This document shows, one piece after another, positions 2,738 through 22,353 of a stretch of DNA of 64,000 bases. Origin of the DNA: Williamsia sp. DF01-3. GTDB lineage: Bacteria > Actinomycetota > Actinomycetes > Mycobacteriales > Mycobacteriaceae. Location of the stretch: assembly GCF_023051145.1 (NCBI RefSeq), contig NZ_JALKFS010000005.1:124001-188000 (forward strand), read 5' to 3'. A program made the position numbers and the translations under genes. Every line of letters starts with the position of its first letter. Positions within the stretch are counted from its first letter, which is position 1. The notes under the pieces were generated by a model, which did not search any database, had not been told where the DNA came from, and worked only from the letters and a program-made list of their open reading frames with translations.

Positions 2738-4054
2738 TCATGTATACGGTTTACGAGCCGTCTCGGGATCGCCATAGGTGATCGCGCGTTCACGTCTCGA
2801 TCCGGTCGCCAGCGTGGCCGCCCAGTTCATCAGGGTGCCGGTGCGATTGCGCGCACCGGAGAGGAACGCGATGTGGATGACTCCCCACGAGAGCCAGCCC
2901 ATCATCCCGGACATGTGGAGCGGACCGGCCTGCACCAGCGCGTGATGCCGTGCGATGTACGCCGCGTTGCCCAGGTCTCGGTACTTGAACGGCCGCCTCT
3001 TCTTGGTCTTGCCCTCCACCGCGGCGGCGATCACCGCCCCGGCGTGCCGCCCACCCTGCATGGCAACCTCGGCGACGCCGGGAAGTTTGTTGCGCGACAT
3101 CATGTCTCCGACAACAAACACGTTGGGGTGGCCCGGAACGGACAGGTCCGCCTCGACTGCGATTCGCCCTGACCGGTCCTGCTCGGCGCCCAAGGCGGTG
3201 GCCAGCGTCCGTGCGAACGGTACCGCTTCCACGCCTGCCGTCCACAACACCGTTCGGGTGTCGAACCGGGTCTTGGTCTTCGGTTCGGCCTTGGTGGTGA
3301 TCTCCACGTCCGTCGCGGTCACGTCGGTGACGTGCACGCCGAGGTGAGTCTCGACGCCCACCTTGTCGAGTGTGCGCAACGCGCTGTCGCTGAGTTTGCT
3401 GTCGAACGACTCCAGGACTCGCTCACCACCGTGCAGGAGTAGCACTCGCGCCTCACCCGGGTCGATCGACCGGAACTCGTGTGTCAGTGCGCGCGTGGCC
3501 AATTCGCGGATCTGCCCGGCGAGCTCGACACCGGTCGGCCCCCCGCCCGCGACAGCGAACGTCAGCCAGGGTTTACGTTCTTCAGGCGTGGGCAGCGATT
3601 CGGCCATCTCGAAGGCGGCCACCAACTTTCGGCGGATGGTCAGCGCGTCGTCGAGAGTTTTCATACCCGGCGCCCACTGGATGTACTCCTCGTGACCGTG
3701 GTACGCCTGCTGCATTCCTGCAGCGACCACGAGGTAGTCGTACTTCAGCTCGAAGGTCGATCCGTCGAAGCGGCTCGCTGTGAGCACTCGCGCCTCGGTG
3801 TCGATGGCGTTCGCCTCGCCGAGCGCAACGTGTGCGTTGTCCTGATTGCGCAGCAGGTGCCGCAGAGGACTTGCGATGGAGCCTTCCGACAACAGGCCGG
3901 TGGCGCACTGGTACAGCAGCGGCTGGAACACGTGACTGGTGCCGCGCTCGACAACGGTCACCGCGACATCGGCGCGCTTGAGGCGCTTTGCCGCGTAGAG
4001 ACCTCCGAATCCTCCACCCACGATCAACACATGGGGCCGGCCGGGTGCAGTCAT
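2738..4054 (-). CDS. ndh: Type II NADH dehydrogenase (NDH-2)
   Basis: A 438-residue FAD enzyme that transfers electrons from NADH to menaquinone at the inner face of the membrane without pumping protons. The N-terminal FAD site is HVLIVGGGFGGLYAAKRL and the NADH site is FAVAGGGPTGVELAGQI; a C-terminal VFVVGDMMSRNKLPG is the second FAD-contact motif. The quinone-site helix QPLLYQCATGLL is present. The C-terminal region, with MMGWLSWGVIHIAFLSG, is hydrophobic and amphipathic, as expected for membrane attachment. AAGGAG lies 9 bases upstream of the ATG. Length matches mycobacterial Ndh. The RibD-like gene follows directly. Confidence 0.95.
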   Translation of the reverse strand: MTAPGRPHVLIVGGGFGGLYAAKRLKRADVAVTVVERGTSHVFQPLLYQCATGLLSEGSIASPLRHLLRNQDNAHVALGEANAIDTEARVLTASRFDGSTFELKYDYLVVAAGMQQAYHGHEEYIQWAPGMKTLDDALTIRRKLVAAFEMAESLPTPEERKPWLTFAVAGGGPTGVELAGQIRELATRALTHEFRSIDPGEARVLLLHGGERVLESFDSKLSDSALRTLDKVGVETHLGVHVTDVTATDVEITTKAEPKTKTRFDTRTVLWTAGVEAVPFARTLATALGAEQDRSGRIAVEADLSVPGHPNVFVVGDMMSRNKLPGVAEVAMQGGRHAGAVIAAAVEGKTKKRRPFKYRDLGNAAYIARHHALVQAGPLHMSGMMGWLSWGVIHIAFLSGARNRTGTLMNWAATLATGSRRERAITYGDPETARKPYT

Positions 4055-4169: not shown

Positions 4170-5105
4170 TCACGTCAGATAGCCGCCACCGCGTGGGAAG
4201 AAGTCTTTGCCCGCATGCTCCACACCGTCTTCGGTCCGCAGTCGTTCCACGACCAGTCCGTGGTTCTTTCCGCGGTATGCGTCGGCTCCGGCCACGATCA
4301 CCATGCCGTCCCCCTCGTGGATGAACACCCGGCCGGGGGTGCCGCCGTAGATGCCTGCCGAGACCGAGGCCTTGGTGATCCGGATGCGCTCGCCACGGAA
4401 GTGCGTGAAGGCGTTGGGGTAGGGATCCGATTGGGCGCGGACGAGGCGATCGATGTCCTCGGCGGGCCAGTTCCAGTTGATCTGGCTGTCGATGTCCGCG
4501 CGCTTGTGGAAGAAGGTGCGGTCGGCGAGGTTCTGCTGCTTCCAGACGGCTTCACCCGACTCGATGAGGTCGAGGGCCTCGATCAGGACCTCGGGGATGA
4601 TGTCGATGGTTGCGCGCACGAGATCGGTGGCCGTGTCACGAGGCCCGATCGGCACGGCCCGCTGCACCACCACATCACCGGTGTCGAGGTCGTCATCCAT
4701 GCGGTGGGCGGTCAGGCCCACCTCCTTCTCCCCGCTGATCAGCGCCCAGATGACCGGCGAGAAACCGGTGAACTTGGGCAGCAATGAGTCATGCAGGTTA
4801 AGGGTGCCGTGCGGCGGTAGATCGAAGAGTTCACGCGGTAGCCAGGTGCGCCAGTTGTTCGCGACGATGATGTCGGGCTCGGCGTGCTTGACCTGCTCGA
4901 TCAGTTCGCTGTCGGGTCGTTGCGCGAGGTGGACGGGGATGTTGTTGGCCCGGGCCAGTTCCTCGACGGAGTCCGACCAGATGGACTCGTACGAGTGCTC
5001 ACTCGGCGGGTGGGTGACGGCCAGGACCACCTCGTGATCCGACTCGATGAGTGCTTCGAGAGTCTTGTGTCCCCAGGTCTGGTAGCCAAAGGTCGCTACT
5101 CGCAT
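4170..5105 (-). CDS. N5-hydroxyornithine formyltransferase (Fmt-like)
   Basis: A 311-residue methionyl-tRNA-formyltransferase homologue. The catalytic block reads NLHDSLLPKFTGFSPVIWAL, with the family Asn/His followed by LTAHRMDDDLDTGDVV, whose LDTGD carries the catalytic Asp. A C-terminal OB-like part ends at residue 311. True tRNA formyltransferases usually lie beside def; this one sits divergent from an NRPS and an ornithine N5-monooxygenase. The likely job is therefore formylation of N5-hydroxyornithine for a hydroxamate siderophore, as known for CchA in coelichelin and Rft in rhodochelin. The start at 5105 is preceded by GAAGAGG; an upstream open frame without motifs is ignored. The shared promoter holds an iron box, so iron repression is expected. 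Confidence 0.88.
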   Translation of the reverse strand: MRVATFGYQTWGHKTLEALIESDHEVVLAVTHPPSEHSYESIWSDSVEELARANNIPVHLAQRPDSELIEQVKHAEPDIIVANNWRTWLPRELFDLPPHGTLNLHDSLLPKFTGFSPVIWALISGEKEVGLTAHRMDDDLDTGDVVVQRAVPIGPRDTATDLVRATIDIIPEVLIEALDLIESGEAVWKQQNLADRTFFHKRADIDSQINWNWPAEDIDRLVRAQSDPYPNAFTHFRGERIRITKASVSAGIYGGTPGRVFIHEGDGMVIVAGADAYRGKNHGLVVERLRTEDGVEHAGKDFFPRGGGYLT

Positions 5106-5204: not shown

Positions 5205-5305
5205 ATTCACCATTGAAGTTAGTGCAGCATTCCCTAAACTCACCCAGCGATGCAACGGGGCCTCGCCGAGTGGGTCAGCGCGCTCCGGACAGAAGAGATC
5301 CTCAG

Positions 5306-8300
5306 GTGGATTCCGCACATACCTTGACCGGGAACCCCACCCCCTCGGCGCCTTCCCCGACCACTCCAGCTGCCGGATCGGCACCGTTTGCGCTGACCGC
5401 AGCCCAACGCGGTATCTGGTTCGCCCAGCACCTGATGCCCCACACGCCCATCGTCATCGCGAACTACGCGGAGATCCATGGCCCACTCGACGTTGATCTG
5501 CTCGATGACGTGGTCCGCGCCTGCATGCACGAGATCGACTGCGGGATGCTCCGCCTCGTCGAGATCGACGGTGAGCCGTTCCAGGTGGTCGACCAGACCC
5601 TCTCGGATCGATTCGAGCGAATCGACCTGCGCGGCGAGGACGATCCCGAACTGGCCGCGCAGGAATGGATTCACGCGAACTACTCGGCGCCGATCGATCT
5701 GCTCTCCGATCGGCTGATCAAGGGTGCGGTGCTCCGCGTCGGCGACGAGCACTACCTCTGGTACTCCTGCATCCACCACATCGTCATCGACGGCTACGGC
5801 GCCATCCTGTTCATCAATCGTGCCGCCGAGATGTACACCGCAAAGCTGGCCGGACGCGAGGCCGACACCCAGGCTGTCCCTCCACTGCAGGCGCTGATCA
5901 CCTCCGAGAACGACTACCGGTCGTCCAGCCGTTTCCAGCGCGACCGCGACTACTGGCTGGCCAAGGCCGCGAATCTCCCCGAGCCGCAATCGTTGTCGCC
6001 GTTCGAATCGGCGCCCGACGTCAGACCACGGCGAGTCGGTGAGCTCCTCTCAACCGAGGTCACCCGGCAACTCGAGGCCGCTTCGACGAGATTGAAGACC
6101 TTCGAGACACCACTCTTGATCGCAACCCTCGCCGTGTACATCGCCCGAACCACCGGTTCGGCGGACGTGGTCCTGAGCCTGCCGGTGTCGGGCCGGACCA
6201 ACGCGGTGCTTCGCAAGTCCGGCGGGATGGTGTCCAACATCGTGCCCATCCGCGCGTCGATCACGCCGACGACAACAGTCGGGGACCTCGTCTCGCACAT
6301 CCAGCTCGAGCTCACCGGGGCCCTGCGCCATCAGCGCTATCGGGCCGAGGATCTGCGACGCGACCTCGGTGCAGGTGAGGACTCCCGCGGCTTCTACGGG
6401 CCGGTCATCAACATCATGAACTTCCCGTCGGACATCCGTCTGGGGCCGGTCACCGGGCGGTTCCAGATCCTGTCGACCGGTCCGGTCCACGACTTGTCGG
6501 TGAACCTCTACCCGAGTGCCGACGGCAACACCCGCGTCGACTTCGAGGCCAACCGGCACGCTTACGGAAACGATGAGCTGCGCGCACACCACCGCCGGTT
6601 CGTCACGCTCCTGCAGACGATGGCCACAGCCCCACCCGACGCTGCCGTCGACGGCTTCGATGTCTTGACAGCCGACGATCGCCGCGCGCTTGTGCCATCT
6701 CGTGGCCCGGCGGCCGTGCCTCCGGCAACGTTGAACGAAATGACAAGGGCCGCAGTGCTGACCGGCCCGGATGCCGTCGCCTTGGAGATGCACACGACGC
6801 TTACCTATCGCCAGGTGGACGCCTGGTCCGATCAACTGGCCCAAGAGCTACACGATGCCGGCGCATCCACCGAGCAGTTTGTTGCCATCGCTATGCCCCG
6901 GTCGCTCGACTCGGTGCGCAGCATGTGGGCGGTTGCCAAGACCGGTGCGGCGTTTGTCCCGGTAGATCCGCACTATCCGGCCGACCGCATCGCACACATG
7001 CTCACCGACTCGGGGGCCCGACTGGGCATCACCACCAGCGAGTTCCGCTCACAGCTACCCGACACGGTGCAGTGGCTGGTGATCGACGAACTGGAGATCG
7101 ACAGCGAGGTAACCGCGTCGACGACCGGCGCAATGGACGTCGAGGTCTCGCTGGACCATCCCGCGTACATGATCTACACCTCCGGCTCCACCGGAACCCC
7201 CAAAGGGGTTGTCATCACCCACCGCGGACTGGCAAACCTCGCCGCCGAAAGAAAACACAACTACCTCGTCGAACCCCACTCGAGATTCCTCCACAACACC
7301 TCACCCAGCTTCGACATGGCCATCGGCGAACAAATCGCCGCACTCTCCGCAGGCGCCACCCTCGTCATCTCACCCCCTGACCTGAGCCCTTCAGAGCTGA
7401 CCGATTGGATTGTCGCCAAACGGATCACCCACGCGTTGATCACCCCGACCATGCTGTCGGCGCTCGATCCGGACGCGCTGGTCTCCCTCGAGGTGCTCGG
7501 GGTCGGAGGCGAGTCGGTGACCGGTGACCTGGTGGACCGCTGGGCCGTCGGACGACAGATGCGCAACGGATACGGACCGACCGAAGCCACCGACATCGCC
7601 ACCGTCTCCATCCTGCGGGCAGACAAACCGGTGTCGATCGGTACCGCCGTGCACGGTTTCGAACTGTTGGTACTGAACGCCCGCCTACAACCTGTGCCTG
7701 CCGGTGTACCCGGCGAGCTGTATCTCGCCGGACCCGGCCTCGGCCGTGGTTACCACCGGCGACATGCGTTGACCGCAGAACGGTTCGTAGCCAATCCGTT
7801 CGGCAGCCCCGGCGATCGCATGTACCGGACCGGGGACGTCGTCAGCTGGGCTGCCGACCACCAGCTCCGCTATCACGGACGAGCCGACAGCCAGGTGAAG
7901 ATTCGTGGGCATCGAATAGAACTGGGCGAGATCGACGCGGTGCTCCGGTCCTCTCCGGATGTCCGGCACGTCCGGACAGCGGTACGCGAACTCGCCGACG
8001 GCCATCTGGCTTTGGTGTCGTATGTGGTGGGTGACCCGCGCTCGGCAGACCGTCTTCGTGAGTTGGCCGCGCGCAACCTCCCCCGCCACATGCAACCGGC
8101 GGCGGTCGTGCTGATCGACGCGCTACCACTGACCCCCACCGGCAAGTTGGACGAACGGGCGTTACCTCTACCCGAACTCACCCGTAGCGCCTACCGTGCG
8201 CCGGGTTCCGACGCCGAACGTGTTGTCGCAGCAGCGTTTGCCGAGGTGCTGAACATCGGCCAGGAGGACGTAGGGGCTGACGACAGCTTCTTCGACCTGC

Positions 8301-11300
8301 ACGGCAACTCACTGTCCGCGATGGGGGTGGTCTCCCGCGTCAATGCAGAGTTGGGCACCGGGTTGACCGTTCGCACGGTCTTCGAGAGTCCGACTGTGTC
8401 CGGCATCGCCGCGGCGGCGGGAACCACCGGGCAGACAGCGCGTCCGCCTCTGCGACGGGGCGATCGCCCCGCCCGCTTACCCTTGTCCCCGGCGCAGCAG
8501 CGCATGTGGATCCTCAACCAGTTCGACACTGCGGCTGCAACATATAATCTTCCGTTGGCCGTCCGACTGACCGGAGAACTCGATACGAGTGCCCTCACGG
8601 CAGCTGTCGATGACGTGATCCGCCGCCACGAGTCGCTGCGCACCACATTCCCGAGTGACGACGGAGGACCCAGGCAGGTGGTTCTGCCACCGACTGCGGT
8701 GTCGCTCGACCTCACCCCGCAACCGATCGAGGCCGACCATATCGCCGCGGCCGTGCTGACGCTCGCCCGTGACGGTTTCGATGTCGCGGCGGGGGTCGCC
8801 ATCCGGAGCCGGTTGCTTCGCAGCGCCGCCGACGACCACACGCTGGTACTGGTGATCCACCACATCCTCGCCGACGGCGTCTCCATGGGACCACTCGCTC
8901 GCGACGTCATGCTCGCCTACAACGCACGCACCGAAGGGCTTACGCCGAGCTGGCCCGAGCTGCCCGTCCAGTACGTGGATTTCACGCTGTGGCAACATCG
9001 TGTCCTCGGCTCGGAAAACGATCCCGATTCTGTTGCCGCACAGCAGGTCCGATACTGGCTACAAACACTCGAAGGCCTGCCCGCGGTGCTCGATCTGCCC
9101 ACCGACCGCCCACGGCCCGCCGTCGCCTCACACCGCGGAGCGTCCGTCGACTTCGAGATCAGCGGCTCGACCGGCGCCGCGCTGCGTGAACTCGCGCGAC
9201 AACGTGGTGCATCCATGTTCATGGTCGTCCACGCCGCACTGGCCACCCTCCTCGCAAGGCTGTCCGGTACCGAGGACATCGCGATCGGCACGCCGATCGC
9301 AGGTCGTGGCGAGGAACAGCTCGACGACGTCATCGGCATGTTCGTGAACACGCTTGTCCTGCGGACACAGGTGGACCTCGAAACCGGTTTTGCCGACCTT
9401 CTCACCCAGACCCGAGCCGTTGACCTCGGTGCGTACGCCCACGGTGATGTCGCATTCGAGCGTCTCGTCGACATCTTGCAACCGCCGCGCACCCAGGCGT
9501 ATTCGCCGCTGTTCCAAGTGGTTCTGAACTTCGAACCCGGGCTACCCGACAGCTTCGAGCTCCCGGGCCTCACTGTGACTCCCGTCCCCCTCGACCCAGG
9601 TATCGCCCAGTTCGAACTCGCGTTCTCCATCACCGAGCCGGCCCCGGATGACAACTGCCTGCGTGGGTCCCTGCGCTACGCAACCGACCTCTTCGATCGC
9701 CGCTCGGCACAAGATTTCGCCGACCGTCTTGTTCAGATCCTCGATGCGGTGGCCATTGACGCCGCCGCGCCCCTGGCAGACCTGCCGCTGTTGACCGCCG
9801 AGGAGAACGCGAAGCTGGTACCCGTACGCGGCCCGGCATCTGTACCGGCAGCGTCGATGGCCCAACTGATCGACACGGCCGTGCGGCAACGCCCCGACGA
9901 CGACGCGGTCATCTGGGATGGCCGTGCGCACAGTTATCAAGAGGCCGACGCCTGGGCCGACAGCTGCGCCCGAGTCCTGCAGGAACATGGTGCCGCACCA
10001 GAACGTTTCGTCGCCATCGCACTTCCCCGGTCTGCGGACTCGGTGCGCAGTATGTGGGCGGTTGCCAAGACCGGTGCGGCGTTTGTCCCGGTGGATCCGC
10101 ACTATCCGGCCGACCGCATCGCACACATGCTCACCGACTCGGGCGCCCGACTGGGCATCACCACCAGCGAGTTCCGCTCACAGCTACCCGACACGGTGCA
10201 GTGGCTGGTGATCGACAAACAGCTCGCCGCCCCCGGCGATGGCATCCCATTCGGGCCGAAACCCCAGGTCTCACCGGACCATCCCGCGTACATGATCTAC
10301 ACCTCCGGCTCCACCGGGACCCCCAAAGGTGTTGTCATCACCCACCGCGGACTGGCAAACCTCGCCGCCGAAAGAAAACACAACTACCTCGTCGAACCCC
10401 ACTCGAGATTCCTCCACAACACCTCACCCAGCTTCGACATGGCCATCGGCGAACAAATCGCCGCACTCTCCGCAGGCGCCACCCTCGTCATCTCACCCCC
10501 GCACCTGTCACCGGCTTCGCTCGGCGACTTCATCCGGTCGGAGCGAGTGACCCACGCCCTGATGACACCCACGATGCTTGCCGCGCTCGCTTCCGACGAC
10601 CTTCCCGATGTCAGGGTGCTGGGTGTCGGCGGTGAGGCAGTGTCCGCAGCGCTGGTCGACCGGTGGGCTGCCGGCCGACAGATGCGCAACGGATACGGGC
10701 CGACCGAAACCACCGACATAGCCACCGTCGGCAATCTGCGGCCGGGCGAACCGGTCACCATCGGCGCTGCAGTGCACGGATTCACGCTCCTCGTGCTCGA
10801 CGGCCGCCTCAATCCGGTCCCGGTCGGGGTGCCCGGCGAGCTCTATCTCACCGGCCCCGGCCTGGCCCGCGGCTACCACCGCAGATTCGGCCTGACAGCA
10901 GAACGGTTTGTCGCCAATCCATGTGGTGCACCGGGCGACCGGATGTACCGCACCGGCGATACGGTCGCCTGGACTGCAGAACTGGAATTGCGCTATCACG
11001 GACGCACCGACAGCCAGGTCAAGATCCGCGGACACCGCATCGAACTCGACGAGATCAACGCGGTTCTGCTGAAACATCCGGCGGTCGGACAAGCCGTCAC
11101 CGTCGGCACCGCCACCCCCACCGGCGAGCCGGCCCTGGTCTCGTATGTGGTGCCATCGACACACTCCAACCCGCCGGACACCGAGCACCTCGTGGGGTTT
11201 GTCAGCGAGTTCCTTCCCCGGCACATGGTGCCTGCCGCAATAGTCGCGGTGGCCGCCATCCCGGTCACACCGACCGGAAAGCTCGACGAACAACGCCTGC

Positions 11301-12388
11301 CCGCAGCAACTTTCGAATCTCGGACTCCGTACCGAGCTCCGAACACACATACCGAAGTCGTCGTCGCGGCTGCCTTCGCTCGATCACTCGAACGACAGCA
11401 AGTCGGCGTGCACGATGACTTCTTCGCACTCGGCGGCAACTCCCTGTCGGCCATCGCCATGGTCGGCGCGATCGGTGAGCAACTGGGCCGACGAGTCCAG
11501 CTGCAGTGGCTGTTCGCCGACCCCACCCCGATGGCGTTGGCCAGACGGATCGACCTGACCGATCCCGTTCAGGACGACGCCGCCCTCGACGTGGTGCTGC
11601 CGATCCGCCGCACCGGCTCGGCAGCACCGCTCTTCTGCATACACCCGATCATCGGATTGTCCTGGTGTTATCGACCTCTGGTGCAGCATCTGCCATTGGA
11701 TCGGCCGATCTACGGCATCCAGGTACCCGGGACCGACGACACCGAGCCACCACGGTCCATAGAGGCGACGGCCGCACGCTACGTCGCGGAGATCCGGCGT
11801 ATACAGCCCGACGGCCCTTACCATCTGCTCGGCTGGTCCCTCGGCGGCGTCCTCGCGCATGCGATGGCTGTGCTGATCGAAGAACAGGGTGGCCAAGTGG
11901 CCAGCTTGGTGATGCTGGACAGTTTTGCATCACCACCGGTGCCCGCAGCCGACGAATCCGTCCACGCGGGAGATCTGCTGGCGGGACTCGGATTCGGCGG
12001 TGCCGTACTGGAGCAACTGGGAGCAACGTCCGCAGATTCCCTCAACGACGTACTCGCGGTGATCGAGGATCTGCCACACGGCATCGAGCGTCATCAGGTT
12101 CAGCGCCTGGTCGACTTCGCCGAGCACAACAGCACACTGCTGCGGGAGCATTCACCGGGCATCTACACCGGAGACCTGTTCTTCGTCACTGCTGACGGTG
12201 ATTCGCCGGGGTCCACGGCTGCTGCCGACTCGTGGCTGTCGCATGTGAAAGGTGAGATCTCCACGCTTGCCATCCCGTTCACCCATTGGCAGATGTGCAG
12301 CCCCGCCGCGCTTCGTCTCGCCGGCCCCTTCATCGCACGTCATCTCGCCCGCCGGTCCGACGTGACACTCGTCGGCGGAGAACACTGA
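5306..12388 (+). CDS. Siderophore non-ribosomal peptide synthetase, C-A-T-C-A-T-TE
   Basis: A 2360-residue two-module synthetase. Order: condensation (HHIVIDG, His157/His158/Asp162), adenylation with [11 protein letters not shown] near 624-634, carrier (LHGNSL, phosphopantetheine Ser1002), condensation (HHILADG, His1185), adenylation (same motif near 1665), carrier (LGGNSL, Ser2046), and type I thioesterase (GWSLGG, Ser2178). The N-terminal condensation domain and the thioesterase resemble EntF, so the first domain probably takes an acyl or peptidyl group from a carrier protein made elsewhere. Both adenylation domains give the same pocket code in my hand alignment to GrsA (DMGLGGGDI), suggesting the same or very similar amino acid; hydroxy- or formylhydroxy-ornithine fits the neighbours but is inference. 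The GTG at 5306 has AGAAGAG 8 bases upstream; an upstream TTG at 5213 would add 31 residues without homology. Confidence 0.92.
6911..7087 (+). repeat. Adenylation-domain direct repeat, tract 1, copy A
   Basis: This 177-base stretch of the first adenylation domain differs at only 3 positions from 10040-10216 in the second. Flanking DNA of the two domains is far less similar. Confidence 0.9.
7154..7377 (+). repeat. Adenylation-domain direct repeat, tract 2, copy A
   Basis: This 224-base stretch, covering the ATP-binding YTSGSTG motif to the FDMAIGE pocket region, differs at only 2 positions from 10277-10500. Similarity stops abruptly at 7378. Confidence 0.9.
10040..10216 (+). repeat. Adenylation-domain direct repeat, tract 1, copy B
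   Basis: Second copy of the tract at 6911-7087, in module 2, in the same reading frame (offset 3129 bases). Confidence 0.9.
10277..10500 (+). repeat. Adenylation-domain direct repeat, tract 2, copy B
   Basis: Second copy of the tract at 7154-7377, in module 2 (offset 3123 bases). The 6-base change in offset between tracts shows a two-codon length difference in the unshared linker. Confidence 0.9.
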
Positions 12389-12389
12389 C

Positions 12390-14099
12390 ATGAGGCCTCG
12401 GCACACACGGTCCGGTGCAACCATTCTCCGCGACAGTGTGCGAAGCAACGCCCCGCTGCTGGCCGGCGCAGCACTTCTGCTGTGCCTCCATCAGGCCTGT
12501 GAGGTTGCGGTCCCCGTGCTGATCGGCGTGATCATCGACCGGGCGGTGACCAACGGCGATCTTGGTTCTCTCGCCACCGGAATCACCTGGCTCGCCGCGG
12601 TGTTCGTGGCGCTGACGATCTGCTACCGACTGGGCGCACGGCTCGCGATGCGTGCCGCCCTCGATCAGGCGCATCGGCTACGTGTTCAGGCCACCCGCCG
12701 TGTGCTCGACCGCGCGATGCTGGACACCGATCTGCGTAGCGGGGAACTGATGGCGGTGGCGGGCACCGATACAGACGAAACCGCGGCACTGCTCCGGTAC
12801 CTGCCACAGGCAGCGGGTGCCCTGGCCGCCGTCGCGGTGTGCGGCGGCGCGCTGCTGGTCATCGACATCCCACTCGGACTGGCCGTGTTCGTCGGCGTTC
12901 CGGTGCTGCTGCTCGGATTACAGCTCACCGCACCAGGTTTGACGCGACAGATGATCACTCAGCAACAGGGCGTGGCCGAGACGTCGGGATCAGCGGCAGA
13001 CCTCATCGCCGGCCTGAGACCGCTGCGCGGTATCGGGGCCGAGGAAGCGGCCGCGTCGCGCTACCAGACGTCGAGCCAAGATGCGCTGGTTGCGATGCGG
13101 CGCGCAGCGCGTGGGCAGGGCATGTTCATGGGGGCGGCCGCAGGAATCAGCGCGATCCTCGCGGTGGGCGTCGCCACGGCTGCCGGATGGTTCGCGCTCA
13201 GTGGCCGGATCAGCGTCGGCGAGCTCGTGACCGTGCTGGGGATCGCGCAGTTCTTCCTCGAGCCCCTCGCCGTGCTCTCGATGTTGCCAGGAAAGGTGTC
13301 GACCGCCCGCGCATCAGCCGAACGACTCGCGCTCATCTCAGACGCCGACGTGGTGAAGTCCCGGGCGACCATGCCGCTCGGACCCGGACCCCACGGCATC
13401 GAGTTCCGGGGCGTCGAGTACGACAGCCTGCGCGGCCTCGACCTCATCGTGAAACCCGGTGAATGCGTGGGCATCGTCGCCACCAGCGCCCACGACGCCC
13501 ACGCGATACTCGCCCTGATGTCCGGCGTTGCCACACGGTCGGCGGGTGGCGTTTGGGTGTCGAACGTGCCCGCCGAATGCACCGACACATCCGAACGGCC
13601 GCGACCGCTGCTGATCGCTCCGCATGCGACTGACCTCTTCACAGGATCCGTCATGGACAACCTCCGCGCCGGTGACGACAACCTCCACCCCAGCGCGGTC
13701 GCCGAGGTGTTACGGGCGGTGGCCGGTGAAGACGTGGCCGCCGCCCACACGAACGGTCTCGATCACGTGGTCGCGGACCGTGGTTACTCCCTGTCGGGAG
13801 GGCAGCGACAGCGATTGGCACTTGTCCGCGCGCTGCTCGCCGACCCCGCTGTACTGGTCTTGCACGACCCCACCACATCGATCGACGCCGTCACCGAACG
13901 CACTGTGGCGCACCATGTCCATCGTCTTCGGCATCAGCGACGGGCCGACCGCACCACTGTTGTGATCACCAGCAGCCCAACCCTGCTGTCGGTGATGGAC
14001 CGTGTTGTGCTCGTCGACGGAGGCCGGGCCGAACGCGACGGCGCGCACGCCGATCTGACCGCCATGGACAACCGGTACCGCGAGGCGGTCCTGCGATGA
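12390..14099 (+). CDS. ABC transporter, fused TMD-NBD, ATPase site degenerate
   Basis: A 569-residue type IV ABC half-transporter with about six N-terminal membrane helices, then a nucleotide-binding domain. The domain is abnormal. The Walker A position reads GIVATSAHDAH (361-371) with no GxxGxGK[ST]. The Walker B Asp is His492, followed by Asp493 where the catalytic Glu belongs, and the H-loop His is Ser528. By contrast the signature LSGGQRQR (468-475) is intact. It starts one base after the NRPS stop and overlaps the next ABC gene by ATGA, so the two probably form a heterodimer in which this half donates only the signature motif. Likely role: export (or uptake) of the siderophore; no siderophore-interacting domain of the IrtA type is present. 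Confidence 0.88.
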   Translation: MRPRHTRSGATILRDSVRSNAPLLAGAALLLCLHQACEVAVPVLIGVIIDRAVTNGDLGSLATGITWLAAVFVALTICYRLGARLAMRAALDQAHRLRVQATRRVLDRAMLDTDLRSGELMAVAGTDTDETAALLRYLPQAAGALAAVAVCGGALLVIDIPLGLAVFVGVPVLLLGLQLTAPGLTRQMITQQQGVAETSGSAADLIAGLRPLRGIGAEEAAASRYQTSSQDALVAMRRAARGQGMFMGAAAGISAILAVGVATAAGWFALSGRISVGELVTVLGIAQFFLEPLAVLSMLPGKVSTARASAERLALISDADVVKSRATMPLGPGPHGIEFRGVEYDSLRGLDLIVKPGECVGIVATSAHDAHAILALMSGVATRSAGGVWVSNVPAECTDTSERPRPLLIAPHATDLFTGSVMDNLRAGDDNLHPSAVAEVLRAVAGEDVAAAHTNGLDHVVADRGYSLSGGQRQRLALVRALLADPAVLVLHDPTTSIDAVTERTVAHHVHRLRHQRRADRTTVVITSSPTLLSVMDRVVLVDGGRAERDGAHADLTAMDNRYREAVLR

Positions 14100-15916
14100 C
14101 TCCTGAGTTGCACGAGGAAACTCGGGTCCTCCCGGTCGCTACCGGACGACAGACCAGGTCGTGGCTCGCCGCTGCCCTGGCCCACCATCGCGCGGCGGTG
14201 GCCCGTGTCATCGCCGTATCCGCCCTTGCCGCAATCGCATCGGTGACTCCGGCGTTGGCCCTGGGAGTGCTGGTCGATCGTGTGGTCGCCGGTGCCGGTA
14301 CCTCCGTCCTGTTGTCCATCGCCGCGGTTGCCGCTGCCGCCGCGCTGGTCGGCGGAGTGGCTGCGGGACTGTCGGTCTACTCCGTGGCCTCTCTGGGGGC
14401 CGGACTGCTTGCCGACCTCCGTGAGAGCGTGGTCCGGCGGGCGCTCCGCATGCCCACCCGGGTGATCGAAGAAACCGGGCGGGGCGACCTGCTGTCGCGC
14501 GTCACCAATGACGTTGCGGCCGTAACCAAAGCCGTGATCACCGTGCTGCCCACCGTGGTGATCGCGACCATCCTCACCGCGGTGAGCATCGCCACGATGG
14601 TGGGTCTCGACTGGCGCCTCGGCCTCGCGGGTGCTGCCGCCTTGCCGCTCTACGGGCTGGCTCTGCACTGGTACCTGCCTCGGTCGTCCCCGCGCTACGC
14701 TGCCGAACGGCGTGCAGTCGGCGAGCGCTCCCAGGCCATGGTGGAAAGTTTCACCGGCCTTCGCACCGTGCACGCGTACGGACTCGAGGCATCGCAGGCG
14801 AGCATCGTCGAGACCAAGTCCGCTGCGGCCCGCGACATCTCCATTGCCGCATTCACGGTGTTCACCCGCATGGTCGGCCGGGTCAACCGTGCCGAGTTCG
14901 TCGGTCTGGCAGCAGTTCTGGTGGTGGGCTTCATGCTCGTCGAGGACGGTGCCGTGTCGGTGGGTGCAACGACAGCCGCCGCGCTGCTGTTCCATCGCCT
15001 CTTCAATCCGATCGGCATGATCCTGTACAGCTTCGCCGACCTCCAGCTCGCAGCGGCCGGCCTGTCCCGGCTGATCGGCGTGGCCATCTCGACCGACGTC
15101 GATTCCGACGCCCCCGCCGACACCCAGATCGACAACACGCTGATCGGCGGCGCGACACCTCGGGAAGGCACCGTCGAAGTGCGCGCCGTTCATTTCGGCT
15201 ACGACGCACGCCGGCCCGTTCTTCGGGGGATCGATCTTCGCATCGAGGCGGGCACCCGAGTGGCGCTGATCGGAGCGAGTGGCGCGGGCAAGTCGACGCT
15301 GGCGGCCATGGTCGCCGGAAACCTCACCCCGACATCGGGATCGGTGATGATCGGCGGCGTCCCGTTGGACACGTTGCCTACCGACGTCGTCCGGCAACAC
15401 GTGGCCACCGTCAGTCAAGAGGTCCATGTCTTCGCCGGACCACTGATCGACGATCTCCGTCTGGCCAGGCCGTCGGCCGGCACGGCCGAGGTCTGTGCCG
15501 CGCTCGACACCATCGGGGCACTCGAGTGGGTCCGCGAGCTGCCCGGTGGTCTGGACACAGTGGTTGGCGAGGGCGGCCATCAGCTCACCGATGCGCAGGC
15601 TCAGCAGATAGCACTCGCCCGGCTGGTCCTGGTGGACCCGCCGATCGCCGTACTCGATGAGGCCACCGCCGAGGCGGGCAGTCTCGGCGCACGAGATCTG
15701 GAGCGCTCGGCGGCTGCTGCCACGGCCGGACGAACGACGTTGGTGGTGGCGCACCGGCTCAGTCAGGCGATGCAGTGCGACGAGGTGGTCGTGCTCGATC
15801 GCGGCACGGTCATCGAACAGGGAACGCCGGCTCAACTGCTGGCTTCTGAAGGACTTTTCGCCCGGATGTGGGCGGCATGGACGATCCAAGGACACGGAAG
15901 GGACGCGGAGCAATGA
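14096..15916 (+). CDS. ABC transporter, fused TMD-NBD, catalytic half
   Basis: A 606-residue type IV ABC half-transporter with an N-terminal membrane domain of about six helices. Walker A is canonical (GASGAGKS, 393-400), Walker B ends in Asp521-Glu522 (VLDEAT), and the H-loop His553 is present. The signature is altered to LTDAQ (497-501) in place of LSGGQ. This is the exact complement of the preceding protein, which keeps LSGGQ but lacks Walker A and B. It begins within the stop of the previous gene (ATGA), consistent with translational coupling and equal dosage. Together they would have one complete ATP site (this Walker A/B plus the partner's signature). Siderophore transport is inferred from the operon. 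Confidence 0.9.
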   Translation: MTPELHEETRVLPVATGRQTRSWLAAALAHHRAAVARVIAVSALAAIASVTPALALGVLVDRVVAGAGTSVLLSIAAVAAAAALVGGVAAGLSVYSVASLGAGLLADLRESVVRRALRMPTRVIEETGRGDLLSRVTNDVAAVTKAVITVLPTVVIATILTAVSIATMVGLDWRLGLAGAAALPLYGLALHWYLPRSSPRYAAERRAVGERSQAMVESFTGLRTVHAYGLEASQASIVETKSAAARDISIAAFTVFTRMVGRVNRAEFVGLAAVLVVGFMLVEDGAVSVGATTAAALLFHRLFNPIGMILYSFADLQLAAAGLSRLIGVAISTDVDSDAPADTQIDNTLIGGATPREGTVEVRAVHFGYDARRPVLRGIDLRIEAGTRVALIGASGAGKSTLAAMVAGNLTPTSGSVMIGGVPLDTLPTDVVRQHVATVSQEVHVFAGPLIDDLRLARPSAGTAEVCAALDTIGALEWVRELPGGLDTVVGEGGHQLTDAQAQQIALARLVLVDPPIAVLDEATAEAGSLGARDLERSAAAATAGRTTLVVAHRLSQAMQCDEVVVLDRGTVIEQGTPAQLLASEGLFARMWAAWTIQGHGRDAEQ

Positions 15917-17217
15917 ATGACCACAACACGGAGGTCGTCGACGTCCTCGGAATCGGTTTCGGTCCGTCGAACCTCGCACTCGCCATTGCAGTGGAGGAAC
16001 TGAACTCCGGACTGGACCCAGACCAGCGGATCACCGCCCGATTCGTGGAGGGCAAAGAACAGTTCCGCTGGCACCCCGGAATGCTGTTGCCTCGCACGAC
16101 GATGCAGGTGTCATTCCTCAAAGACCTGGCGACACAACGCAACGTTCGCAGCGAGTACACCTTCCTGAACTATCTCGCGGAGGTGAACAGGCTCACGGAG
16201 TTCGTCAACTTCCAGACCTTCTTTCCTACCCGTCACGAGTTCCACGACTACCTGGAATGGGCGGCTCGCAAGGTCGATGCCGACGTCTCGTACGGCACCC
16301 GGGCTGTGCTCATCGAGAACTCCGGAGACTGCTTCGAGATCCACGTGGAAGGGCGGCACGCGGGGATCGTCAGGGCCCGCAACATCGTTGTCGCAGCCGG
16401 GTTGGTGGCCAGGCTCCCCCTCGGGATCACAGCGTCGCAGCGGGTCTTCCACAACCACCAACTACTGCCACACCTCGCCGAGTTGCCCGAGCCCACCGCC
16501 AACAGTTTCCTGGTGATCGGCGCCGGCCAAAGCGCAGCCGAGGTCGCGGAGTACCTGCACACCAACTATCCCGGTGCGGAAGTACACGCGGTGTTCGCCA
16601 AGTACGGATACACGCCCGCCGACGACAGTCCCTATGCGAACCGGATCTTTGATCCCAACGCGGTCAACGACTTCCACTCGTCGGCTCCCGAGTTCCGCCG
16701 TCGGCTGCAGAACTATCACCGCAGCACCAACTACTCAGCGGTGGACCTCCCGCTCATCGAGGAGTTGTACGCCCGCGAATACGACGAACGAGTGCGCGGC
16801 CAACGGCGCCTGTTCGTCCACGGCGCCTCCGAGGTGACCCAGGTGGTCGAATCGGACACCGACGTGACGGTGACCGTTCGTCACGAGCCGACAGGCCTCA
16901 CCGAGGACATCGTCTGTGATGCGGTGGTGTGCGCCACCGGTTTCGATCCGCTCGACCTCAAGGAGATCTTGGGGGATCTGACGGACAGCGTGGCCTACGA
17001 CGCTGCCGGCCCCCAGGTCGCTCGCGATTACCGCCTCATCACCACCTCACCCCTGCCCGGCGGGATCTTCTTGCAGGGCGGAACCGAACACACGCACGGC
17101 ATCTCGTCGTCACTGCTGTCGAACATCGCCGTTCGCACCGGGGAGATCGTGAAGTCCGTGGCCCGCGACCGCAAAGGCGAGGCGGTGTCGACACTTTCGC
17201 GCGGGAGGCTGGGCTAG
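15913..17217 (+). CDS. L-ornithine N5-monooxygenase (SidA/PvdA family)
   Basis: A 434-residue FAD- and NADPH-dependent N-hydroxylating monooxygenase that converts ornithine to N5-hydroxyornithine for hydroxamate siderophores. FAD motif GIGFGPSNLALA near residues 13-24; the WHPGMLLP and QVSFLKDL blocks are family signatures; the NADPH motif is VIGAGQSAAEVAEYL; the C-terminal VCATGFDPLDL is the ATGF motif. The ATG at 15913 overlaps the preceding ABC stop (ATGA), with GGAG just upstream. Together with the formyltransferase it supplies the hydroxamate building block for the NRPS. Lysine as substrate (IucD type) cannot be excluded but fits the formyltransferase context less well. Confidence 0.93.
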   Translation: MNDHNTEVVDVLGIGFGPSNLALAIAVEELNSGLDPDQRITARFVEGKEQFRWHPGMLLPRTTMQVSFLKDLATQRNVRSEYTFLNYLAEVNRLTEFVNFQTFFPTRHEFHDYLEWAARKVDADVSYGTRAVLIENSGDCFEIHVEGRHAGIVRARNIVVAAGLVARLPLGITASQRVFHNHQLLPHLAELPEPTANSFLVIGAGQSAAEVAEYLHTNYPGAEVHAVFAKYGYTPADDSPYANRIFDPNAVNDFHSSAPEFRRRLQNYHRSTNYSAVDLPLIEELYAREYDERVRGQRRLFVHGASEVTQVVESDTDVTVTVRHEPTGLTEDIVCDAVVCATGFDPLDLKEILGDLTDSVAYDAAGPQVARDYRLITTSPLPGGIFLQGGTEHTHGISSSLLSNIAVRTGEIVKSVARDRKGEAVSTLSRGRLG

Positions 17218-22112: not shown

Positions 22113-22147
22113 CCAACACGGCGCACACTCTCCGACTCCAGCGACTT

Positions 22148-22353
22148 CCTCCGACTGCAACCGGAGGAACTGACCGCAATCGGAGGAACTGCCCCCACGG
22201 CCACACAACCTCCGACTGCAACCGGAGCCTGAGCGCTGGGTAGCGCACACCCTCCGGTTCCGGCGACAACCTCCGACTGCAACCGGAGCATCTGACCGCA
22301 ATCGGAGGAACTACCCCCACGGCCACACAACCTCCGACTGCAACCGGAGCCTG
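22148..22353. repeat. Noncoding repeat block with short hairpins
   Basis: An 84-base unit at 22148-22231 recurs at 22270-22353 with only a few changes (spacing 122 bases). Within and between the copies, CTCCGACTGCAACCGGAG, whose ends CTCCG/CGGAG are inverted, occurs four times, with related CGCAATCGGAGGAACT elements between. No reading frame with family features crosses the block. Repeats of this kind at gene ends are common in related genomes, but this exact unit I do not recognise. Confidence 0.8.

Follow-up and report, generated by a model that had tools for sequence, protein, structure and literature searches.

Positions 12,390 to 15,916 of a 64,000-nucleotide (64-kb) stretch of DNA from Williamsia sp. 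DF01-3, hereafter the window, encode two ATP-binding cassette (ABC) half-transporters, A and B, whose nucleotide-binding domains (NBDs) have lost complementary sets of motifs. We consider it probable that the two halves work as an obligate heterodimer that exports a siderophore, is driven by one ATP site and has a nucleotide-free contact as its second site. Half A (569 amino acids (aa), 12390..14099, forward strand) and half B (606 aa, 14096..15916, forward strand) each carry ABC_membrane and ABC_tran domains in one chain, above the Pfam cut-offs and in the order transmembrane domain (TMD) then NBD, the arrangement of half-transporters of ABCB-type (type IV) exporters. The open reading frame (ORF), Pfam and alignment evidence mark the ABC_tran domain of A as degenerate; that of B has an intact P-loop and no LSGGQ. 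No further Pfam domain was found in either half at E <= 0.001.

In half A, alignment indicates that the A-loop is truncated (IEFRGVEYDSL, residues 337-347, 13398..13430; this and all motif coordinates below refer to the forward strand), a deletion having removed the adenine-stacking Tyr. Where the canonical Walker A sequence is GxxGxGKST, A reads ATSAHDAHA (364-372, 13479..13505), with neither the Lys nor the glycine loop. The Gln is gone from the Q-loop position (APHATDLF, 410-417, 13617..13640), as is the His from the H-loop position (VITSSPT, 525-531, 13962..13982), where a Ser-Pro pair is conserved. Within the Walker B/D-loop segment (VLVLHDPTTSIDAVT, 488-502, 13851..13895), the Walker B Asp has become His492 and the catalytic Glu has become Asp493, and the D-loop Asp499 is kept. 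Half A is left without a P-loop, Q-loop Gln, Walker B Asp, catalytic Glu or H-loop His, and with its D-loop and an intact signature, LSGGQRQR (468-475, 13791..13814), which it would donate to the consensus site. The first-pass annotation of this DNA had called the missing Walker A Lys, the Asp-to-His and Glu-to-Asp changes, the missing H-loop His and the retained LSGGQ, with all of which the alignment agrees; it had overlooked the losses of the Q-loop Gln and the A-loop Tyr.

Half B mirrors A, in that its nucleotide-binding motifs are kept and its signature and D-loop Asp are gone. The A-loop Tyr369 (15200..15202), the Walker A motif GASGAGKST with Lys399 (393-401, 15272..15298), the Q-loop VSQEVHVF (439-446, 15410..15433) and the H-loop VVAHRLS (550-556, 15743..15763) are intact. 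The signature reads LTDAQAQQ (497-504, 15584..15607), and the Walker B/D-loop segment (IAVLDEATAEAGSLG, 517-531, 15644..15688) retains the LDE of Walker B and has AEAGS in place of the D-loop. In the aligned motifs this region reads VLVLHDPTTSID in A and VLDEATAEAGSLG in B. The earlier description of B as complete in all but LSGGQ holds for Walker A, Walker B, the H-loop and LTDAQ, but the D-loop Asp has to be added to its losses.

Because an A-A dimer would be without nucleotide-binding motifs and a B-B dimer without signatures, neither homodimer could form a complete site, and the simplest working machine would be an A-B heterodimer with one ATP site. The motifs would thus give the heterodimer one consensus and one non-consensus site, as had been proposed for the window pair, and the same prediction extends to 145 of 151 pairs analyzed. 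The sole site of ATP binding and hydrolysis would be built from the Walker A and B motifs and the A-, Q- and H-loops of B together with the signature and D-loop of A. At the other site, half A, with its truncated A-loop, its missing P-loop and its conserved H-D-P-T-T and S-P residues, would face the LTxAQ and AEAGS of B; this site would take up no nucleotide and serve as a fixed or nucleotide-independent dimer contact.

The pattern recurs across relatives. An initial alignment of 17 A sequences, that of the window among them, shows LSGGQRQR in all 17 and the Walker A Lys in none. A larger sample drew on 80 named loci, 40 regions of the window's family, 8 further regions and 20 Mycobacterium-genus regions, all the regions having been hand-picked for spread from longer match lists. 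ORFs that contained X, or for which no partner stop lay 1300-2400 bases downstream, were left unpaired, and an apparent A-B fusion (L125, a 1154-aa ORF), which contains an X run from an assembly gap, was excluded before pairs were counted. The 151 resulting pairs are the window, 137 tandem pairs and 13 whose halves lie about 11 kb apart. A P-loop pattern is absent from A and present in B in 145 of them (74 from pattern-found loci, 70 from whole-genome searches, and the window). Among these 145 A halves the Walker A Lys, Q-loop Gln and H-loop His are each found in none and SGG and the D-loop Asp in all; the Walker B Asp is kept in 22 and the catalytic Glu in 39. Their B partners all have the Gln, Asp, Glu and His, none has SGG, and 27 have the D-loop Asp. 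The exact pattern of the window is seen in 102 of the 151 pairs, and in 65 of 98 representatives after dereplication at 80%. Outside the 145 are four standard heterodimers with both P-loops (L086, L092, whose B is cut short, L104 and L109) and two mispairings, a wrong pairing in L101 and a B-B tandem in L156. At the former locus, from Streptomyces niveiscabiei, three consecutive ORFs encode ABC half-transporters, of which the first has a P-loop and ISAGQ and is followed by an A/B pair; in the latter, a shorter second B-type ORF (468 aa) follows an A-B pair in tandem.

The 80 named loci, 78 of which gave a pair, were found by peptide patterns that include SLSGGQRQR, so that their A halves retain SGG in part because of how the loci were chosen. 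We therefore also consider a bias-control set of 72 pairs found without motif patterns, made up of the window and 71 pairs that were picked by hand, for spread, from the results of whole-protein searches. The exact pattern is present in 64 of these and a P-loop-less A with an SGG-less B in 71; seven of the remainder differ only by a kept catalytic Glu (five) or D-loop Asp (two), and one is the B-B tandem. A whole profile, built from A's own family and searched against 394 genomes of the class, found A in 77 genomes and 30 of 138 genera (E <= 1e-100). All 30 A genes fetched from this search, three of which (including that of the window) come from genomes already sampled, lack the Lys, Gln and His and carry SGG. 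The window's genome has 14 ABC_membrane matches, one without NBD motifs and 13 with an NBD; the P-loop is kept in 11 of the 13 and missing from A and from one other, which is the A-type half of a second pair. That second pair (locus L151, C5 at about 5038-5042 kb) has the same complementary losses and adjoins other matches to NRPS (nonribosomal peptide synthetase) and N-monooxygenase; the genome may thus hold a second siderophore cluster.

Half A is under purifying selection. Its ratio of nonsynonymous to synonymous substitution rates (dN/dS) is 0.09-0.12 against three 96% relatives, and 0.12-0.135 for the NBD. Across 65 core representatives, seven of the nine Walker A columns of A are more variable than the NBD median. 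The residues that replace the other motifs of A are shared by nearly all of the same representatives: the Q-loop His (His412) by 97%, the His, Asp and Pro of Walker B by 91%, 100% and 98%, and the Ser and Pro of the H-loop by 98% each. The replacement of the D-loop in B is likewise near-fixed among core representatives (Ala-Gly-Ser 100%, Glu 91%). At the column of Tyr369, all 92 B representatives have Tyr, and 91 of the 92 A representatives have a gap. From the drifting Walker A, the fixed replacement residues, the deleted A-loop and the low dN/dS of A, we infer that the second site has been rebuilt as a nucleotide-free one and is not decaying.

An unrooted tree from a quick search, computed with the motif columns removed from 35 P-loop-less A rows and their 35 partner B rows, places the A rows in one clade and the B rows in another (SH-aLRT, the Shimodaira-Hasegawa-like approximate likelihood ratio test, 100 each). 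The first-pass annotation had named orthologues with intact motifs as a sign of local error; the P-loop-bearing relatives found place outside the A clade. Together with the orthologue alignment it had called for, in which the Lys is missing from 17 of 17 A sequences and the loss recurs in 145 of 151 pairs, this placement indicates that motif loss in A is family-wide and old rather than local. The A and B clades split alike, into 8 and 27 rows and then into 10 and 17, the 10-row branches having weaker support (94 and 82). Distances within A and within B are strongly correlated (Mantel r 0.955; none of 2000 permutations reached this value, the largest being 0.374), a value that includes a contribution of shared species history. 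Two different halves that are encoded together, in the tandem and split pairs and in the window, and that are co-inherited, are what is expected of a heterodimeric exporter.

The two sides of the split differ in how far the second site has changed. The 8-row side has four Streptomyces members and one each from Propionibacteriales, Frankiaceae, Phycicoccus and Cellulomonas; its P-loop, Q-loop, H-loop and signature motifs are gone, the D-loop Asp is kept in 8 of 8 B rows, and the LDE of Walker B is kept in three of the four Streptomyces A rows. Some rows of the 27-row side still carry Walker B or the D-loop Asp. The most economical order of events would be that the P-loop and loops of the A side and the signature of B were lost first, and Walker B and the D-loop later.

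How the second site works is best judged against described transporters. In the PDB, the best matches of the A and B profiles include, with small margins, the half-length chains 3qf4 and 5mkk, and only other ABC transporters occur among the best 60 matches listed; 3qf4_A and 5mkk are presumably TM287/288 and TmrAB. Like the proposed A-B dimer, TM287/288, TmrAB, BmrCD, TAP and MsRv1273c/72c are ABCB-type heterodimers in which one site is consensus and the other non-consensus; TM287/288, BmrCD and TAP had been cited as precedents in the first-pass annotation. The extent of motif loss in A could also suggest a decayed gene or a sequencing error, an explanation refuted by the low dN/dS of A and by the recurrence of the loss in each of the 17 aligned sequences, in 145 of the 151 pairs and in all 30 further A genes. 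A second possibility is that A-B is an ordinary degenerate-site heterodimer whose second site still clamps ATP, as in TM287/288, MRP1, CFTR and MsRv1273c/72c, and the strong conservation of A's replacement residues at Walker B and the Q- and H-loops implies that the site does something. Degenerate sites are described as retaining MgATP with comparable affinity, and adenylyl imidodiphosphate (AMP-PNP) is reported in that of TM287/288 (PMC7756269); the degenerate site of MsRv1273c/72c binds ATP through Walker A (PMC12038006). However, the ATP in the MsRv1273c/72c site occupies the Walker A groove (PMC12038006), and where TM287/288 and MsRv1273c/72c hold nucleotide, the A-B family has neither P-loop nor A-loop: the glycine loop, the Lys (0 of 145) and the A-loop Tyr (gapped in 91 of 92) are all gone from A, and most Walker A columns drift. 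We regard a retained ATP clamp as unlikely. Pdr5 and ABCG5/G8 keep the Walker A loop apart from its Lys. Both are described as altering the Walker A Lys, and the altered site of Pdr5 has Lys changed to Cys in Walker A, a changed Walker B, the H-loop His changed to Tyr and an NBD2 signature of LNVEQ (PMC7756269). Pdr5 thus resembles A-B in that all motifs of one site are changed and the changes are distributed over both NBDs, which makes it a closer precedent for the extent of motif change than TM287/288. It differs in being an ABCG-like single chain in which, of Walker A, only the Lys is described as changed; A and B are TMD-NBD halves, not the single four-domain chain in NBD-TMD order of the pleiotropic drug resistance (PDR) type. 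On this comparison Pdr5 appears to be the most altered case described, and the A-B family to go further, having lost the whole P-loop and the A-loop Tyr.

The siderophore assignment comes from the surroundings of the pair. Upstream of A lies an NRPS gene (5213..12388, forward strand, true start uncertain) with two Condensation, two AMP-binding, a PP-binding and a Thioesterase match, and one base separates its stop codon from the ATG of A. Genes A and B run head to tail with their stop and start overlapping as ATGA, and the stop of B is overlapped by the ATG of an L-lysine/L-ornithine N-monooxygenase gene (15913..17217, forward strand). The pair is thus part of an operon with the NRPS and N-monooxygenase genes, and a formyltransferase gene (4170..5081, reverse strand), likely to act in hydroxamate tailoring, lies next to it. 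The exported cargo would be a hydroxamate siderophore made by these neighboring NRPS, N-monooxygenase and formyltransferase genes. Within the NRPS gene, two adenylation domains (window 6839-7384 and 9968-10507) contain near-identical DNA, 242 nucleotides (nt) at 98% and 253 nt at 88%, at a spacing of 3123-3129, which suggests that gene conversion or a duplication took place recently and that the two modules may share the residue they load.

Comparable settings are common in related loci. We counted four markers in 118 main-group loci, within a fetched stretch of at most about 10 kb on each side: NRPS-type matches occur in 73, formyltransferase in 42, FecCD in 38, N-monooxygenase in 29, and any of the four in 92. 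NRPS matches in these counts come from tblastn with two domains of the window, one for adenylation and one for condensation, and may include other AMP-binding enzymes. Of 297 genomes in the genus to which the Mycolicibacterium neoaurum genome belongs, 28 have A (E <= 1e-50). Matches in the order formyltransferase, A, B, NRPS are seen in 16 of the 20 fetched Mycobacterium-genus loci, and the complementary motif split in 20 of 20. In gene order these loci resemble that of ExiT, which acts in exochelin export in Mycobacterium smegmatis: two consecutive locus tags, MSMEG_0017 and MSMEG_0018, are both named ExiT and are listed between FxbA/FxuB and FxbB/FxbC (PMC8371482). Thirteen A halves that seemed to be orphans (10 from Streptomyces, 2 from Lentzea, and G153) all have a partner B 10.6-11.1 kb upstream on the same strand, and a long ORF lies between B and A in the four of these loci inspected. 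We take this split B-NRPS-A layout to be that of CchG-NRPS-CchI, SCO0492 presumably being the NRPS. By layout only, these 13 genomes resemble CchGI (SCO0491 and SCO0493 of Streptomyces coelicolor), the presumed coelichelin exporter, which sits beside the importer CchCDEF (PMC12161575); the halves flank the NRPS gene in CchG/CchI and are adjacent in the window.

Two other roles within siderophore metabolism have to be weighed. The pair could take up ferric siderophore, as do IrtAB and YbtPQ, importers with an exporter fold, and IrtB is among the PDB matches of A. IrtAB is, like A-B, a heterodimeric ABC transporter with an exporter fold and a siderophore-related function, but its ATP complex holds two ATP and it carries a siderophore-interaction domain (SID) (PMC10246721); A-B lacks two intact sites, and Pfam finds no SID in either half, nor in A any domain beyond the two ABC ones. 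FecCD importer matches occur in the 38 of 118 relatives' loci counted above, inactivation of ExiT gives an exochelin-negative phenotype (PMC7527721), and CchGI, as noted, is a presumed exporter next to an importer (PMC12161575). Uptake as the function of A-B appears to us rather improbable. Alternatively, the pair might serve mainly as a membrane anchor for the NRPS, with transport secondary, as proposed for CesCD in cereulide synthesis. Its genes are tightly coupled to the NRPS gene, split loci have the B-NRPS-A layout, and the exochelin-negative phenotype of ExiT loss is discussed as stopped synthesis (PMC7527721). Against such a role, the complete ATP site predicted from sequence in 145 of 151 pairs argues for ATP-driven work, and 45 of the 118 loci have no NRPS-type match in the fetched stretch. 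We think a primarily anchoring function very unlikely.

Several observations weigh against a heterodimeric siderophore exporter with one ATP site. A FecCD query found no match in the 64-kb window, so that no importer of this type is seen in the cluster, and the pair itself sits among siderophore genes, as an importer could. A transposon screen did not score ExiT as required in a mycobactin-deficient strain, a result for which its authors suggest rescue by neighboring colonies (PMC6684656). That the A-side site would hold no nucleotide is supported strongly, but indirectly, by the loss of P-loop and A-loop, and the correlation between A and B distances owes part of its height to shared species history. 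Covariation between loss of the Walker B Asp in A and the D-loop of B is unsupported, with three independent contrasts. Finally, none of the four markers lies in the fetched stretch of 26 of the 118 main-group loci, and a trehalose-phosphate synthase gene stands beside A in two of three such loci examined. Because of these marker-less loci and the two beside trehalose-phosphate synthase, members of the A-B family need not all export a siderophore.

The two main-group pairs concerned, L132 and L135, adjoin a trehalose-6-phosphate synthase gene. An IucA/IucC synthetase was considered as a hidden siderophore gene of marker-less loci and rejected, being present in 2 of 12 genomes tested and away from A. 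None of the four markers was found in the fetched stretches of 24 side-group loci. In this side group (L082, L084, L085, L090, L091 and others, mostly Streptomyces), A is P-loop-less, often with Walker B intact, and in many loci the opposite strand carries a third ABC half. In Corynebacterium flavescens (L080), the A-type half has TetAB (NF000506/NF000103), presumably of Corynebacterium striatum, as its best NCBIfam match, at 142.8 bits against a cut-off of 1025, which makes it a lead only. Searches for plasmid relatives returned 7 records for A and 3 for the Corynebacterium A-type half, none of the latter a record of TetAB. Elsewhere in the window, positions 22121-22353 hold a tandem repeat of a 122-bp unit (1.9 copies, 91% matches, sub-periods of 61 and 19 bp).

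The wider proposal, that a large actinobacterial clade of ABC exporters uses a single ATP per cycle and that its second site was dismantled stepwise into a nucleotide-free, permanently engaged hinge, strikes us as evenly balanced between true and false. In the accessible parts of the open-access PMC literature we found no description of this motif pattern in ExiT or CchGI. The functional advantages of a degenerate site are called unclear (PMC7756269), and one idea proposed is that ATP stays in such a site as glue (PMC12038006). If the single-ATP reading is true, ABC export would not require that a degenerate site retain ATP as a clamp. A widespread natural family whose second site cannot plausibly bind ATP would separate the requirement that the site hold ATP from the requirement that this side of the dimer stay closed. 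Siderophore exporters, ExiT and CchGI among them, would also gain a feature at the level of mechanism. The relatives, from standard heterodimers through pairs that have lost the P-loop and kept Walker B to pairs that have lost all of these motifs, may offer a graded series in which to study the evolution of asymmetry.

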